This document shows, in pieces, positions 1,561 to 13,952 of a stretch of DNA of 20,856 nucleotides (its first letter is position 1; every line of letters starts with the position of its first letter). The translations under genes and the position numbers were made by a program. Below the pieces are notes generated by a model. The model searched no databases. It worked only from the letters and a program-made list of their open reading frames with translations, and was not told where the DNA came from. The DNA is from a virus, in IMG/VR virus record IMGVR_UViG_3300050123_000071, positions 1 through 20,856 of that record. One strand, given 5' to 3'.

Positions 1561-1590
1561 TTACCATTTAATCATTTTTTACGATATAAT
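1561..1590 (+). promoter_or_regulatory. Plus-strand sigma70-type promoter for the HNH gene
   Basis: A perfect TATAAT is at 1585-1590, with a 4/6 match to the -35 box (TTACCA, 1561-1566) at 18-base spacing. Transcription would begin near 1597, directly at the folded leader (1599-1646) of the plus-strand HNH gene. It would make that gene independent of the minus-strand late operon and antisense to it. The call rests on consensus match and placement; AT-rich DNA makes chance matches possible. Confidence 0.5.
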
Positions 1591-1598
1591 GTTTATTA

Positions 1599-1646
1599 AT
1601 ATGTCTAGGGGGCACCCGAAGAGCGTTACTCTGACGTCTGACATAT
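1599..1646 (+). promoter_or_regulatory. Folded 5' leader element (7-bp stem enclosing two hairpins)
   Basis: ATATGTC (1599-1605) is perfectly complementary to GACATAT (1640-1646). Inside are a GGG/CCC hairpin (1608-1617) and an AGAG/CTCT hairpin (1620-1632, loop CGTTA). The element starts almost exactly at the predicted transcription start and ends about 30 bases before the preferred HNH start codon. A 5'-end stabilising or translation-control structure is plausible. Its function is inferred; the pairings are read directly from the sequence. Confidence 0.5.
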
Positions 1647-1675
1647 CATTTCACAGAGATAACATAAGAGGTGTT

Positions 1676-2443
1676 ATGAAAGTCATTTGTAATAATTGTA
1701 ATATTACTTTTCAAAAAAAACCACATCGTATTTTAAGAAGTAAAACTCATTTTTGTACTCCTTTATGTCATAAGAATTACAAACAAAAGAATTCAACGAA
1801 AATTGAAATTGAATGTTCTTTTTGTGGTAAAAAACATTTTAAATCTCCAAGTGACATAAATAGGAATTATAAAAACTTTTGTTCACAAAAATGCATGGGA
1901 TCAAAAATAATTTTACAATGTATAAAATGTAATAAAGATTTCAGAAAAGCATCATTTCATGAAAATCATGGAATGTGTCGATCATGTTATATAAAAGATT
2001 TTTATAAAAAAAATCCTGAAAAATTAAATAAAACGAGATATAGAAATAGAATGCGACAAAGAGTAATTAATGGAACACCTATTGATATTCCAGTACAATC
2101 AAGAAATACTCAAGGTTATTTATGTAGTAAAGGATACAAAATTGTATATAAAGATATTATTGAAAATTCCTGGAAAGATGGAAGAATATATGAGCATGTT
2201 TATGTTATGAGTAAACATTTAGGAAGACCATTAGCTGAAAAAGAAACAGTACATCATAAAAATGGAATTAAAGATGACAATAGAATAGAAAACTTAGAAT
2301 TATGGAGTTCCAATCATCCCCCAGGTCAGAGAGTAATAGATAAAATTAAATTTTATAAAGAATTTATAAAACAATATGAAAATGAAATGGATAAATTAGA
2401 TCCCATCTCTCACATAATTCAAAATGATAAAGCCTTGATATGA
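1676..2443 (+). CDS. HNH homing endonuclease with six Cys pairs (free-standing, plus strand)
   Basis: This is a 255-residue protein from the ATG at 1676 (MKVICNNC...), preceded by an AAGAGG ribosome site. An ATG at 1589 is in frame, but it would overlap the promoter -10 box and add a leader that looks non-coding. Six Cys pairs (about residues 5/8, 27/31, 47/50, 68/73, 82/85 and 101/104) suggest three zinc knuckles for DNA binding. The C-terminal HNH nuclease domain has HH at about 193-194 and the signature VHHKNG, DDNR, ENLELW. It closely resembles the HNH protein at 10030-10563 over this domain. Such proteins cut intron- or gene-specific sites to spread their own gene. It is the only large gene on the plus strand, and its last 48 bases overlap the end of the convergent 167-residue gene. 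Confidence 0.88.
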   Translation: MKVICNNCNITFQKKPHRILRSKTHFCTPLCHKNYKQKNSTKIEIECSFCGKKHFKSPSDINRNYKNFCSQKCMGSKIILQCIKCNKDFRKASFHENHGMCRSCYIKDFYKKNPEKLNKTRYRNRMRQRVINGTPIDIPVQSRNTQGYLCSKGYKIVYKDIIENSWKDGRIYEHVYVMSKHLGRPLAEKETVHHKNGIKDDNRIENLELWSSNHPPGQRVIDKIKFYKEFIKQYENEMDKLDPISHIIQNDKALI

Positions 2444-10029: not shown

Positions 10030-10563
10030 TCACACTCTTTTTATCACTTCATAACCGTATTCTTCTAATAAAGATTTAGCCCATGTAATTTTATCTTCAA
10101 GTCGTGATCCCGGTGGTTGTCCTTTTTTCCACAACTCTAGATTTTCTAATCTATTATCATCACGAATTCCATTTTTATGATGAACAGTTTCATCTATTTT
10201 TAAACGACGCCCTAAATGTTCTGCCATTACTAAAATATGCTCAAATACTCTTCCATCTTTTCTTGATGCAAAATGTTTTTTTCTACATAAAGAAATATAT
10301 CCATGTTTATTTTTATATCCTTTACCAATTCCAATTTTAACAACTTCTCCAATGGGTATATCCAGAGGAATTCCTTTTTTAATTCTATAACGAATTCTAG
10401 TTCTTTCATTATCTTTTTTTAAAGGATCGTTTTTATTTCTTAATCTGCAATGTGCATTCATACATAATTTACACCAACATCCATATCCATCTTTATTTCG
10501 TTTATGAAATGTAAATTCTTCTAAATTTTTGCTTATTTTACACTTTGTACAAATTTTCATCAT
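10030..10563 (-). CDS. HNH homing endonuclease (free-standing, co-directional)
   Basis: This is a 177-residue protein whose N-terminus has Cys pairs at 5/8 and 31/34 (CTKC, CKLC), a likely zinc knuckle, followed by a basic linker. The C-terminal HNH domain has HH at about 128-129 and the VHHKNG, DDNR, ENLELW signature. It is strongly similar to the plus-strand HNH protein (both contain EH(I/V), LGR, HHKNGI, NLELW, PPG and RLEDKI/RVIDKI), so they are paralogous selfish genes. Two tandem ATGs occur; GGAG lies 3 bases before the first and 6 before the second (10560), so the second is the better start. It sits between the 382- and 237-residue virion genes, and its start is buried in a 12-bp hairpin. 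Confidence 0.88.
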
Positions 10564-11799: not shown

Positions 11800-12447
11800 T
11801 TATATTGCCACTGCAAGAGTGCAGCGTAGGTTTATGATCCAAGAGGTGTTCGTTGTATTGAACACTTGCGCCATCTTCCATCCTGCTGTTTGATAAAGTC
11901 TCAAACGTGGAGATGCAATTTCTGGCGGTGCATAGATGAATTGAGCGGAATAACCGTCCAAGTCCACCATGTCATAAGATTCTTGTCCTGGTATGAAGAT
12001 ATTATAGACATCTGCTCCAAGAGCTGATGCGCCTACAGATATACTTCCTACTGATGACAATAAGAATCTTAAGTTACGAATGTTACCCCACTCCGCCATC
12101 AAGATATTATCTTGATTTGGATAGTCGGCAACGTTCTTGAATCCAACCATTTGGTCAAGATCAGCACTAAGATTAGTATGACCTAAACCGAAATAGCATG
12201 TTCTTACCGGAGCTGTACCGAATCGGTTTTCACCTTGGATCAAGTCCATGATAAATTGCGCGTTAGCAGTTCTGAGCAATCTAACAGCTTTAGACGCATC
12301 TAAAGGCGCTATATTACTAGGGCTATCTCCATTTGTTCCCGACGTACAAAAAATAGGTGGCGCTGAGCCTTCCATCATTGAACGGGCGAGTTGATCCTCG
12401 GTTTCACGCAAGGATTGGCCAAGCACTGACACTGCACTGTTTAATAC
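11800..12447 (-). CDS. Major capsid protein, exon 2 (C-terminal 215 residues)
   Basis: Read in frame from the 3' splice site, the exon begins VLNSAVSVLGQSLRETEDQL and continues to a stop at 11800. It would normally be called as a separate gene from a GTG at 12432, but there is no ribosome site there, the frame is closed upstream by a stop inside the intron, and the protein then lacks its whole N-terminal domain. Joined to exon 1 (last residue Pro105), it gives a 320-residue protein with the motif EDP-VLNSAVSVLGQSL. This matches the DPxhxxAxxhLGxxh region of N4-gp56-like, HK97-fold capsid proteins. The C-terminal part is beta-rich (YNIFIPGQESYDMVDLDGYS, WKMAQVFNTTNTSWIINL). It forms the icosahedral shell. 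Confidence 0.85.
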   Translation of the reverse strand, partial: VLNSAVSVLGQSLRETEDQLARSMMEGSAPPIFCTSGTNGDSPSNIAPLDASKAVRLLRTANAQFIMDLIQGENRFGTAPVRTCYFGLGHTNLSADLDQMVGFKNVADYPNQDNILMAEWGNIRNLRFLLSSVGSISVGASALGADVYNIFIPGQESYDMVDLDGYSAQFIYAPPEIASPRLRLYQTAGWKMAQVFNTTNTSWIINLRCTLAVAI

Positions 12448-13637
12448 CGTTTGTTACTCACCTCTCGGTGGGAATGATCATTTCTGCCATTCTCCAGACC
12501 TTTCGTTGTCTGGGCCGGACTATCGCATCCCATTGCTGGGTCTCTGGACTTAGTCTCTCACGCTGCACGCTTACGCTGCTTGCGCCCTGTCGCCATGCCT
12601 TTCAGTTTAGGCTTCCAAGTCAATCACCGGAGATTTATAGACCCCATATTTGTTTAACTGCTTAATCTTTTGGTGACATTCTTCACGGAATGCCATTTCT
12701 TCAAGTGGTACACCATGTATGCAACATTTAGTGTTTTTCCAATTCTGACAGAACTCCAAAAGCGTTTTTGCTTGTTCATGTTTAACTTTTAGATAAGGTA
12801 AAATATTTTCAATAAATGGAATCACTTCCAATTTTTTACCTATTGCCAATCTGAAACAGATACCATTTGAACAAGCTTTAACTTTATTAGCTTGTAACTG
12901 ACCATAATTACAATTTTTAGAAATATATCCTAGTGCTTTGGGATCAACCATATCCATACTGATAATTGGTGTGTACCTTTGCCCATAAGGATATTTCTGT
13001 TTCTTTATTGAAAAGGAACCGTCCGATTCTACAATCCCAGCTACATAAGACCAAAAAATAGGATCTAATGTATTTTTTGCTGGTCTTTTAGCAGATTGAA
13101 TCCCTTCAAATACCCTGCAATCATTAAATTCAGCCATTTTCAAATACTGCTTCTCTCTTTCAAGTAACACATCGTCGGATACTAAATATCCTCTAATAAA
13201 CTTGAAATTTAGACAAAAATCTAAAAGAAATTCAGCTCTCTCTTTTTTTAACACCAAATATTTATTGAGTTTTTGCAAAGCTGATGAAACATTTTCAATA
13301 CTTCTTAATCTCCAAAGATAAAATGTTTGCTTGTATCTCTTATCTTTTTTGGGATCAATCGTAAAATATGTTCCACCAAATTTCTCAACAATCAATTTAA
13401 TGATATGTTCTTTTTGAAATCCGAATTGCAGAATTGGATAATATAAAGGAGATCGACTAGCATTTTTTAGTTTTTGAAGACTAAAGCTACCGTCACCATC
13501 CATTAATCCAGCTATATAACTCATCAATATTTCCTCTTCCATGATCCACTCCAAGTTAATTGTTCTTGAATATGATATCACGAAGTGTGTTTAAAGAGCA
13601 AGTGAACAACTTAAGCAGCAATTAACATTTTCTCTCT
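12448..13637 (-). ncRNA. Group I intron in the major capsid gene, containing a LAGLIDADG endonuclease gene
   Basis: The 1190-base insert separates two in-frame capsid exons. Predicted 5' site: after CCT (13638), so the last exon base is U. Predicted 3' site: after G at 12448 (ACG|GTA), the expected terminal guanosine. The 3' half shows a group I core in order: GACTA (12555-12551) pairing with TAGTC (12522-12518) as P7; CCCA/TGGG with a GCAA loop (12540-12529) as P8; CCAGAC/GTCTGG (12513-12494) as P9; CACC/GGTG with a GAGA loop (12470-12459) as a P9-type hairpin. P7 is flanked by the usual AGAGACUA and GAUAGUCC sequences. P1-P6 and the guide sequence were not resolved by eye; a GCTGC (13619-13615) near the 5' end could pair with a GCAGC just before P7. 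Splice sites are predicted from the protein joining. Confidence 0.85.
12607..13542 (-). CDS. Intron-encoded double-motif LAGLIDADG homing endonuclease
   Basis: This is a 311-residue protein from the ATG at 13542, which follows a GGAG ribosome site; an in-frame ATG at 13581 would start in the intron 5' segment and lacks one. Two LAGLIDADG motifs mark a single-chain enzyme: SYIAGLMDGDGSF at about residues 7-20 and SYVAGIVESDGSF at about 164-177, each with the acidic residue used for metal binding. The beta-sheet saddle segments between and after them (for example QTFYLWRLRSIENV, ICFRLAIG) fit DNA contacts. It would cut intronless capsid alleles and spread the intron. The gene lies wholly inside the group I intron and ends 159 bases before the 3' splice site. 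Confidence 0.93.
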   Translation of the reverse strand: MEEEILMSYIAGLMDGDGSFSLQKLKNASRSPLYYPILQFGFQKEHIIKLIVEKFGGTYFTIDPKKDKRYKQTFYLWRLRSIENVSSALQKLNKYLVLKKERAEFLLDFCLNFKFIRGYLVSDDVLLEREKQYLKMAEFNDCRVFEGIQSAKRPAKNTLDPIFWSYVAGIVESDGSFSIKKQKYPYGQRYTPIISMDMVDPKALGYISKNCNYGQLQANKVKACSNGICFRLAIGKKLEVIPFIENILPYLKVKHEQAKTLLEFCQNWKNTKCCIHGVPLEEMAFREECHQKIKQLNKYGVYKSPVIDLEA

Positions 13638-13952
13638 AGGGTCTTCATTAATTAACATTACCTGTTCTTGTAGTATTAGGTAAGTTCCATACCAGTCGAT
13701 CCGCGCATCAATATCCAAGGCGGTCAGTTGTTGCGCTGGTGGATCTACAATTCCATTACCCAAAGGTATTGGAGCTGTCTGTAGGTTTTTATATCTACGT
13801 CTACGTAGAATATCACCTGCTTGTTGATCCATACTTATTGGGTAGCCCATTGTAGTATGAATCAAATCAGGCATAGGACGAGCCAATAACTTCATGCTAA
13901 GCTGCTGTTGCACGCCTGGCGGAAGTATATTGGTGGTTGTTGGTCCGCTCAT
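13638..13952 (-). CDS. Major capsid protein, exon 1 (N-terminal 105 residues)
   Basis: The ATG at 13952 lies 26 bases after the stop of the scaffold-like gene, with GGAG upstream in a hairpin loop. The residues contain a Pro-rich lead, a segment RRRRYKNLQTAPIPLGNGIV, and DARIDWYGTYLILQEQVMLI leading to NEDP at the splice site. These are typical of the N-arm, E-loop and spine-helix region of N4-gp56-like capsid proteins (QxLxxxxIxxxIxxYGxYxxxxE... DP). If translated unspliced it would add eight intron-coded residues (REKMLIAA) and stop, giving a 113-residue dead-end fragment. The complete capsid product therefore depends on splicing to exon 2 at 12447. Confidence 0.85.

Follow-up and report, generated by a model that had tools for sequence, protein, structure and literature searches.

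The stretch analysed here (the window) spans an entire IMG/VR contig of a soil phage, 20,856 bases long. Positions 11800-13952 on its minus strand very likely hold a single major capsid gene of the N4-gp56 type, interrupted by a 1190-nt group I intron. Comparison with relatives supports this reading; splicing in vivo is inferred.

13638..13952, minus strand: capsid exon 1, 315 nt, residues 1-105 (MSGPTT...NEDP)
12448..13637, minus strand: group I intron, 1190 nt; a U precedes the 5′ splice site and G is the 3′ end
11800..12447, minus strand: capsid exon 2, 648 nt including the stop, residues 106-320 (VLNSAV...LAVAI-stop)

Joined in frame, the exons encode a 320-aa protein with the junction NEDP/VLNSAV. 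The joined protein matches TIGR04387 (N4-gp56) with an E-value of 7.5e-40, whereas the halves alone reach only 2e-11 and 3.6e-21; its score of 137.2 bits against a family cut-off of 60, with residues 5-314 covered, satisfies full-length membership. It also matches PHROG 1357, 'major head protein' (E 8e-28). A viral-contig search returned 79 relatives, and in 14 IMG/VR relatives the capsid gene runs uninterrupted across the junction at 86-90% identity; NEDPVLNSAV is present in all 13 of these intronless relatives whose translations were printed. A preliminary description, made without database searches, had proposed a capsid gene split by a 1190-base group I intron at 12448-13637, with an in-frame EDP-VLN join giving 320 residues and an intron that follows a U, ends in G and carries P7, P8 (GCAA loop) and P9 in its 3′ half. 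All of these claims held, on the evidence of relatives, core and P1/P10, with splicing itself inferred, and intronless homologues do align across residues 105/106, a check that it had suggested.

The intron has a catalytic core and pairings with both exons.

13638..13643, minus strand: P1 exon strand GACCCU; the last base is the splice-site U
12646..12650, minus strand: P10 strand AAUAU; its partner is the start of exon 2, GUAUU (12447-12443)
12640..12645, minus strand: GGGGUC, the internal guide sequence forming the intron strand of P1; it makes the U.G pair at the junction and lies 992 nt away from the 5′ splice site
12489..12635, minus strand: catalytic core P3-P9, as located by the covariance model built without the window (97.2 bits, E 2.2e-23)
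12551..12557, minus strand: P7 5′ strand (G-bulge-GACTA), partner 12517-12522; 100% of cells paired, two pairs covary
12529..12540, minus strand: P8 hairpin CCCA-GCAA-TGGG with a GCAA loop

A P9 helix is present alongside P7 and P8 in the 3′ part of the intron. We aligned 48 related intron cores from diverse phage contigs and tested a structure of 37 pairs, P3/P7 pseudoknot included. Across the alignment 94.3% of cells pair, and changes on both sides of a pair occur in 392 cells (117 ± 9 in shuffles) and in 30 of the 37 pairs, a signal that is lost when partners are slid. P7 is paired in every aligned core and its variable positions covary (A-U, G-C and U-A beside the bulge; A-U to G-C); the window P3 contains one C-A mismatch. 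The conserved P3, P4, P6, P7 and P8 core with its P3/P7 pseudoknot meets the group I criterion in the window; self-splicing with a guanosine cofactor is inferred.

P1 (GACCCU/GGGGUC) is identical in all nine introns at the window's site. P10 (GUAUU/AAUAU) comprises five pairs in the window, where the last base of the intron is the omega G. Over 64 introns of the capsid gene P10 averages 3.7 pairs, versus 0.7 with exon 2 of other sites, and at the window's site the P10 strand varies along with the exon 2 codon (GUA, GUU, GUG). When exon 2 is swapped among same-site introns, P10 drops clearly only at site 315, the window's own (5.0 to 3.4 pairs); at the remaining sites P10 support is at the level of the site only.

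The covariance model used for detection was trained on 32 related introns, with the window and its four closest relatives left out. This held-out model gave 69 matches in 34 intron-bearing loci, every one on the capsid strand, and none in 13 intronless loci (96 kb). It detects no further introns in the window, the next match having an E-value of 0.57. Rfam group I models gave no match beyond chance hits in the window or in ten relatives, at gathering and permissive thresholds; the intron class is recognised only with a purpose-built model. An Rfam match is a detection aid and not a structural requirement for group I membership. The covariance-model match at 12448-13637 that the preliminary description had offered as a check was obtained with our own model and not with Rfam. 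Its expectation that automatic annotation would report truncated capsid genes held, since the class is invisible to Rfam.

An alternative is that the two halves belong to separate genes or represent a broken gene, or that ribosome bypassing or protein splicing, and not RNA splicing, brings them together. In its favour, the halves are distinct ORFs in the DNA. It is contradicted by a group I core with compensatory pairs and by P1 and P10 at both junctions; in addition, the halves are conserved to the same degree as the gene of intact relatives, and no intein-like sequence was seen in the insert. We consider this alternative all but excluded; two genes, inteins and bypassing were each rejected for the window's split on P1/P10 and core covariation. 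We are highly confident that the intron itself (gene, intron, core and P1/P10) is real, its splicing in vivo being an inference.

The P1 loop contains an endonuclease gene, which the preliminary description missed, together with the known capsid introns and the conserved read-through tail described below.

12607..13542, minus strand: LAGLIDADG homing endonuclease ORF, 311 aa, ATG at 13542, motifs AGLMDGDG and AGIVESDG
13549..13555, minus strand: possible Shine-Dalgarno cttGGAG for the endonuclease, by sequence

The ORF matches Pfam LAGLIDADG_1 (E 1.2e-10), and is similar to I-MsoI (E 1e-10) and I-PanMI; five other introns at the window's site encode intact relatives that are 39-66% identical to it. 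Two LAGLIDADG motifs with acidic residues in an intact ORF meet the endonuclease criterion, and cleavage of the intronless allele is inferred. Nearly all of the ORF lies 5′ of the guide sequence and of the complete core (P3-P9), although its last codons (NKYGVYKSPVIDLEA) overlap P1-P3. Because same-site introns without an ORF there (L040, L043 and L062) have P1 loops of just 9-12 nt, we interpret the endonuclease gene as a P1-loop insertion. The preliminary description had implied a ribozyme core split around the ORF; this part failed, being ruled out by the ORF-less relatives. Physarum LSU intron 3 likewise has an endonuclease ORF (I-PpoI) in its P1 region, although I-PpoI differs from the window enzyme in being a His-Cys box enzyme of nuclear rDNA. 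Intron, structure and endonuclease are secure from comparison, with endonuclease activity inferred. The window also contains two freestanding HNH endonuclease genes (10030-10563, minus strand, and 1589-2443, plus strand; Pfam HNH_3, E about 1e-9). Both sit among structural genes, with the 1589-2443 gene in the opposite orientation, and neither lies inside a model-detected intron.

When the capsid frame is continued from exon 1 into the intron, it reaches a short tail that ends in two alanines (stops are written as -stop throughout).

13611..13637, minus strand: read-through tail REKMLIAA-stop, the capsid frame continued into the intron; proposed C-terminal degron of the unspliced product

Among introns that would leave a retained fragment of 87-215 aa, exon-frame read-through ends in AA-stop in 58 of 62, and the other four end in xA-stop (VA or DA). 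The background for AA-stop is 0.36% in dinucleotide shuffles of the same introns and 0.35% when every stop in the loci is counted. Because many of the introns are related by descent, the 58/62 do not represent 62 independent events. At the site that leaves a 36-aa fragment, a stop occurs within two codons in 25 of 26 introns and AA-stop in none of the 26. The residue at position -3 of the 58 AA-stop tails is L in 34, I in 10, M in 6, K in 6, and Q and T in one each. The window's LIAA-stop meets the criterion for an ssrA-like degron, a C-terminal (L/V/I/M)AA or close variant; Clp-dependent degradation is inferred. Alanine codons of the tail vary synonymously (GCT/GCA/GCG/GCC) and the stops are TAA or TAG. 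Each of the three exon phases is represented among introns with the tail, and P1-loop length modulo 3 tracks the phase. The tail lies in L1 if an ORF fills L1 and in L5 otherwise. Several tails resemble the tmRNA tag (AEQYALAA, AEQFALAA, AEQFVLAA and YDYALAA, with AEHYALAA at nt 235 in L049). AA tails occur in N4-gp56 capsids, in P22-type coat genes and in tape-measure-like genes, the last identified by sequence only.

An independent sample was assembled from introns gathered by P7 sequence, pooled with further introns sharing that P7 and not chosen by tail region, which yielded 60 distinct exon-frame tails at least four codons long. AA-stop ends 27 of the 60 and A-stop 40 of the 60, compared with 0/51 and 3/51 in the other two frames (Fisher 2e-9 and 1e-11, respectively). 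For tails of at least 11 codons, P1-loop length modulo 3 equals the exon phase in 42 of 42. This match is in part inherent, since stops in P2-P3 close the other frames.

These data bear on two rival readings of the tail. In the first, the intron is real, but AA-stop merely reflects shared ancestry or constraint on the RNA. Most of the introns are homologous, the conserved GCAGCGTGA in P6/J6-7 itself encodes AA-stop in one frame, and GCNGC codons in L5 are able, by sequence, to pair in a hairpin. Against this, the tail varies in position (L1, L5, P6) and occurs in all three phases, yet it is always in the exon frame, with 0/51 in other frames; introns of the same family at the 36-aa site meet a stop immediately and have no such tail in P4-L5; the alanine codons are synonymously variable; and the read-through tails of two mycobacteriophage introns (below) also end in AA-stop. 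We consider the by-product reading unlikely. In the second, translation of exon 1 into the intron yields a short capsid protein with a use of its own, such as regulating assembly, and the tail is part of its function. The tail is indeed conserved and follows a defined capsid segment, but the last two to three residues are all that is shared by the fragments, which range from 78 to 215 aa and include pieces of unrelated proteins (P22 coat, tape measure, tail protein), and intronless relatives manage without such fragments. This reading appears less plausible still than the first.

Not every intron carries the tail. RNR introns stop immediately without it, and it is absent from the T4 nrdB, T4 nrdD and SPO1 gp31 introns, all three of which were checked; AA-stop as a universal group I rule is ruled out by these RNR, T4 and SPO1 introns. 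An intron in an HK97-like capsid gene, a type assigned by our reading of the sequence, has the tail KPTLH-stop. Some introns in divergent capsid genes, most of them at the same DP site as in the window, have tails VVAFS-stop, EVAIS-stop, YGVS-stop, YGIS-stop or YGTC-stop and not AA-stop (carried by L096, L139, L201, L384, L407, L431, L473 and L503). A second recurring tail class, [LIVF]H-stop (KPTLH, YVH, LVH and ETLH), was observed in L088, L092, L102, L393, L399, L085, L115, L121, L139 and L476.

Capsid introns are already known from Tuc2009 and LittleE, and what is new here is what surrounds the intron, including the conserved read-through tail. In Lactococcus phage Tuc2009 (AF109874; cited in PMC3706429), an ORF-bearing group I intron likewise splits the major head gene, although capsid and host differ and the 55-aa fragment ends in PAWS-stop without an Ala-Ala tail. 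The LittleE capsid intron and the BAKA tail-gene intron, from Cluster J mycobacteriophages, were shown to splice by RT-PCR (PMC3706429). By comparison with intronless Lucky2013, the LittleE capsid exon frame continues WNSVATAAA-stop, and at the published coordinates the BAKA tail-gene exon frame continues LSDDLAAAAA-stop; in the LittleE stretch examined, AA-stop accounts for 12 of 681 stops. These introns resemble the window's in lying in virion genes and in their read-through ends (ATAAA-stop and LAAAAA-stop), on which we found no remark in the relevant sections of PMC3706429. LittleE differs in that its endonuclease ORF is on the opposite strand, and kinship of the LittleE and BAKA introns to the window's family is not shown. 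Other phage group I introns, such as those of T4 nrdB and nrdD and SPO1 DNA polymerase, often have an early in-frame stop after the 5′ splice site, interpreted as protecting folding (review PMC3984707); the T4 and SPO1 introns differ from the window's in sitting in enzyme genes and lacking an AA-stop tail.

In the tmRNA/ssrA system, a C-terminal ...LAA peptide directs incomplete proteins to ClpXP, LAA being a common end of the ssrA tag (PMC9382460), and tags consisting of just Ala-Ala are known (PMC11915505). The window's proposed tag differs in being encoded by the gene's own intron, with no tmRNA or ribosome rescue needed. We found no description of intron-encoded degrons in the open-access literature searched, subscription papers being outside the search.

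In the mechanism we propose, the final ~200 nt of the intron would fold into the core, GACCCU of exon 1 would pair with the guide sequence ~990 nt further downstream to give P1, and self-excision of the intron would join Asp-Pro to Val-Leu-Asn. The LAGLIDADG endonuclease would be made from its own start site within the P1 loop and would presumably copy the intron into empty capsid alleles, an inferred activity. Translation into the unspliced intron is expected because bacterial ribosomes closely trail RNA polymerase, translating RNA during transcription, and truncated subunits should be numerous when the gene that the intron interrupts is an abundant capsid gene. Some ribosomes would run from exon 1 into the intron ahead of splicing and then reach REKMLIAA-stop. 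The C-terminal Ala-Ala would act as an ssrA-like degron through which a host protease (ClpXP or equivalent) would destroy the 105-residue capsid fragment and prevent it from poisoning shell assembly. The contrast between tagged long and untagged short fragments fits disposal of assembly-poisoning pieces. We regard the whole explanation, intron plus AA-stop tail as degron, as likely, with the degron role inferred and degradation not shown; shared ancestry, the RNA-encoded AA-stop in P6 and the intron classes without AA call for caution. If true, a coded degradation tag would explain why as many as four introns are tolerated in one capsid gene, and would provide a rare example of selection on the read-through peptide of an intron. 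The idea is directly testable in cultured mycobacteriophages with introns known to splice.

The 963-nt capsid gene of relatives is interrupted after nt 108, 235, 262, 293, 315 (the window's site), 353, 399, 435, 546 and 645, about ten sites in all. L060 and L049 have four introns each, and many others have two or three. In one relative (L040:2447-2469) a 22-23-nt exon lies between the nt-293 and nt-315 introns.

At nt 262, in about 20 loci, an insertion of 36-51 nt with an in-frame stop is followed by a 31-nt exon, after which comes the nt-293 intron, a complete group I intron. The small exons that spliced alignment with a 150-nt minimum intron had placed between nt 262 and 293 were rejected as false, since the sequences themselves show the 36-51-nt insertions there. 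These 'mini-introns' (for example L029:4262-4345) have a U before and a G at the end, and P1 and P10 only, without a core. They occur at the same place in L028, L030-L035, L039-L041, L044, L045, L052, L054-L057, L065 and L071, and in every close relative examined that has the nt-293 intron; the window has none. Their P1 is perfect (GAUUGGU/GCCAAUC), with a hairpin that presents the 3′ end, and their P10 covaries with the exon (CCGU/ACGG, CCAU/AUGG). Covariation in the insertions amounts to 27 both-side cells, versus 7 in shuffles. The insertion must be removed or bypassed, because the 31-nt exon encodes conserved capsid residues. The simplest mechanism, which we put forward only as a possibility, is that the ribozyme of the nt-293 intron excises the 'mini-intron' too.

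A bolder reading is that virion-gene introns carry protein quality control, with an ssrA-like tag added when translation outruns splicing and stable capsid made only from spliced mRNA, and with a downstream ribozyme removing 'mini-introns'. We lean towards this reading, by a narrow margin.

Same-family introns were also seen in other genes. Roseobacter phage CRP-118 (OR420741; L081:2971-3136) has an unannotated one in a ribonucleotide reductase gene annotated as two genes. Podoviridae ctn9Y15 (MW202674; L082:2682-4197) has another, also unannotated, in a P22-type coat gene annotated as two, with the read-through end LLAA-stop. Tape-measure-like genes contain further examples (L098:4119-4341, L089, L090, L135 and L368), with read-through ends VIAA-stop and GALAA-stop.
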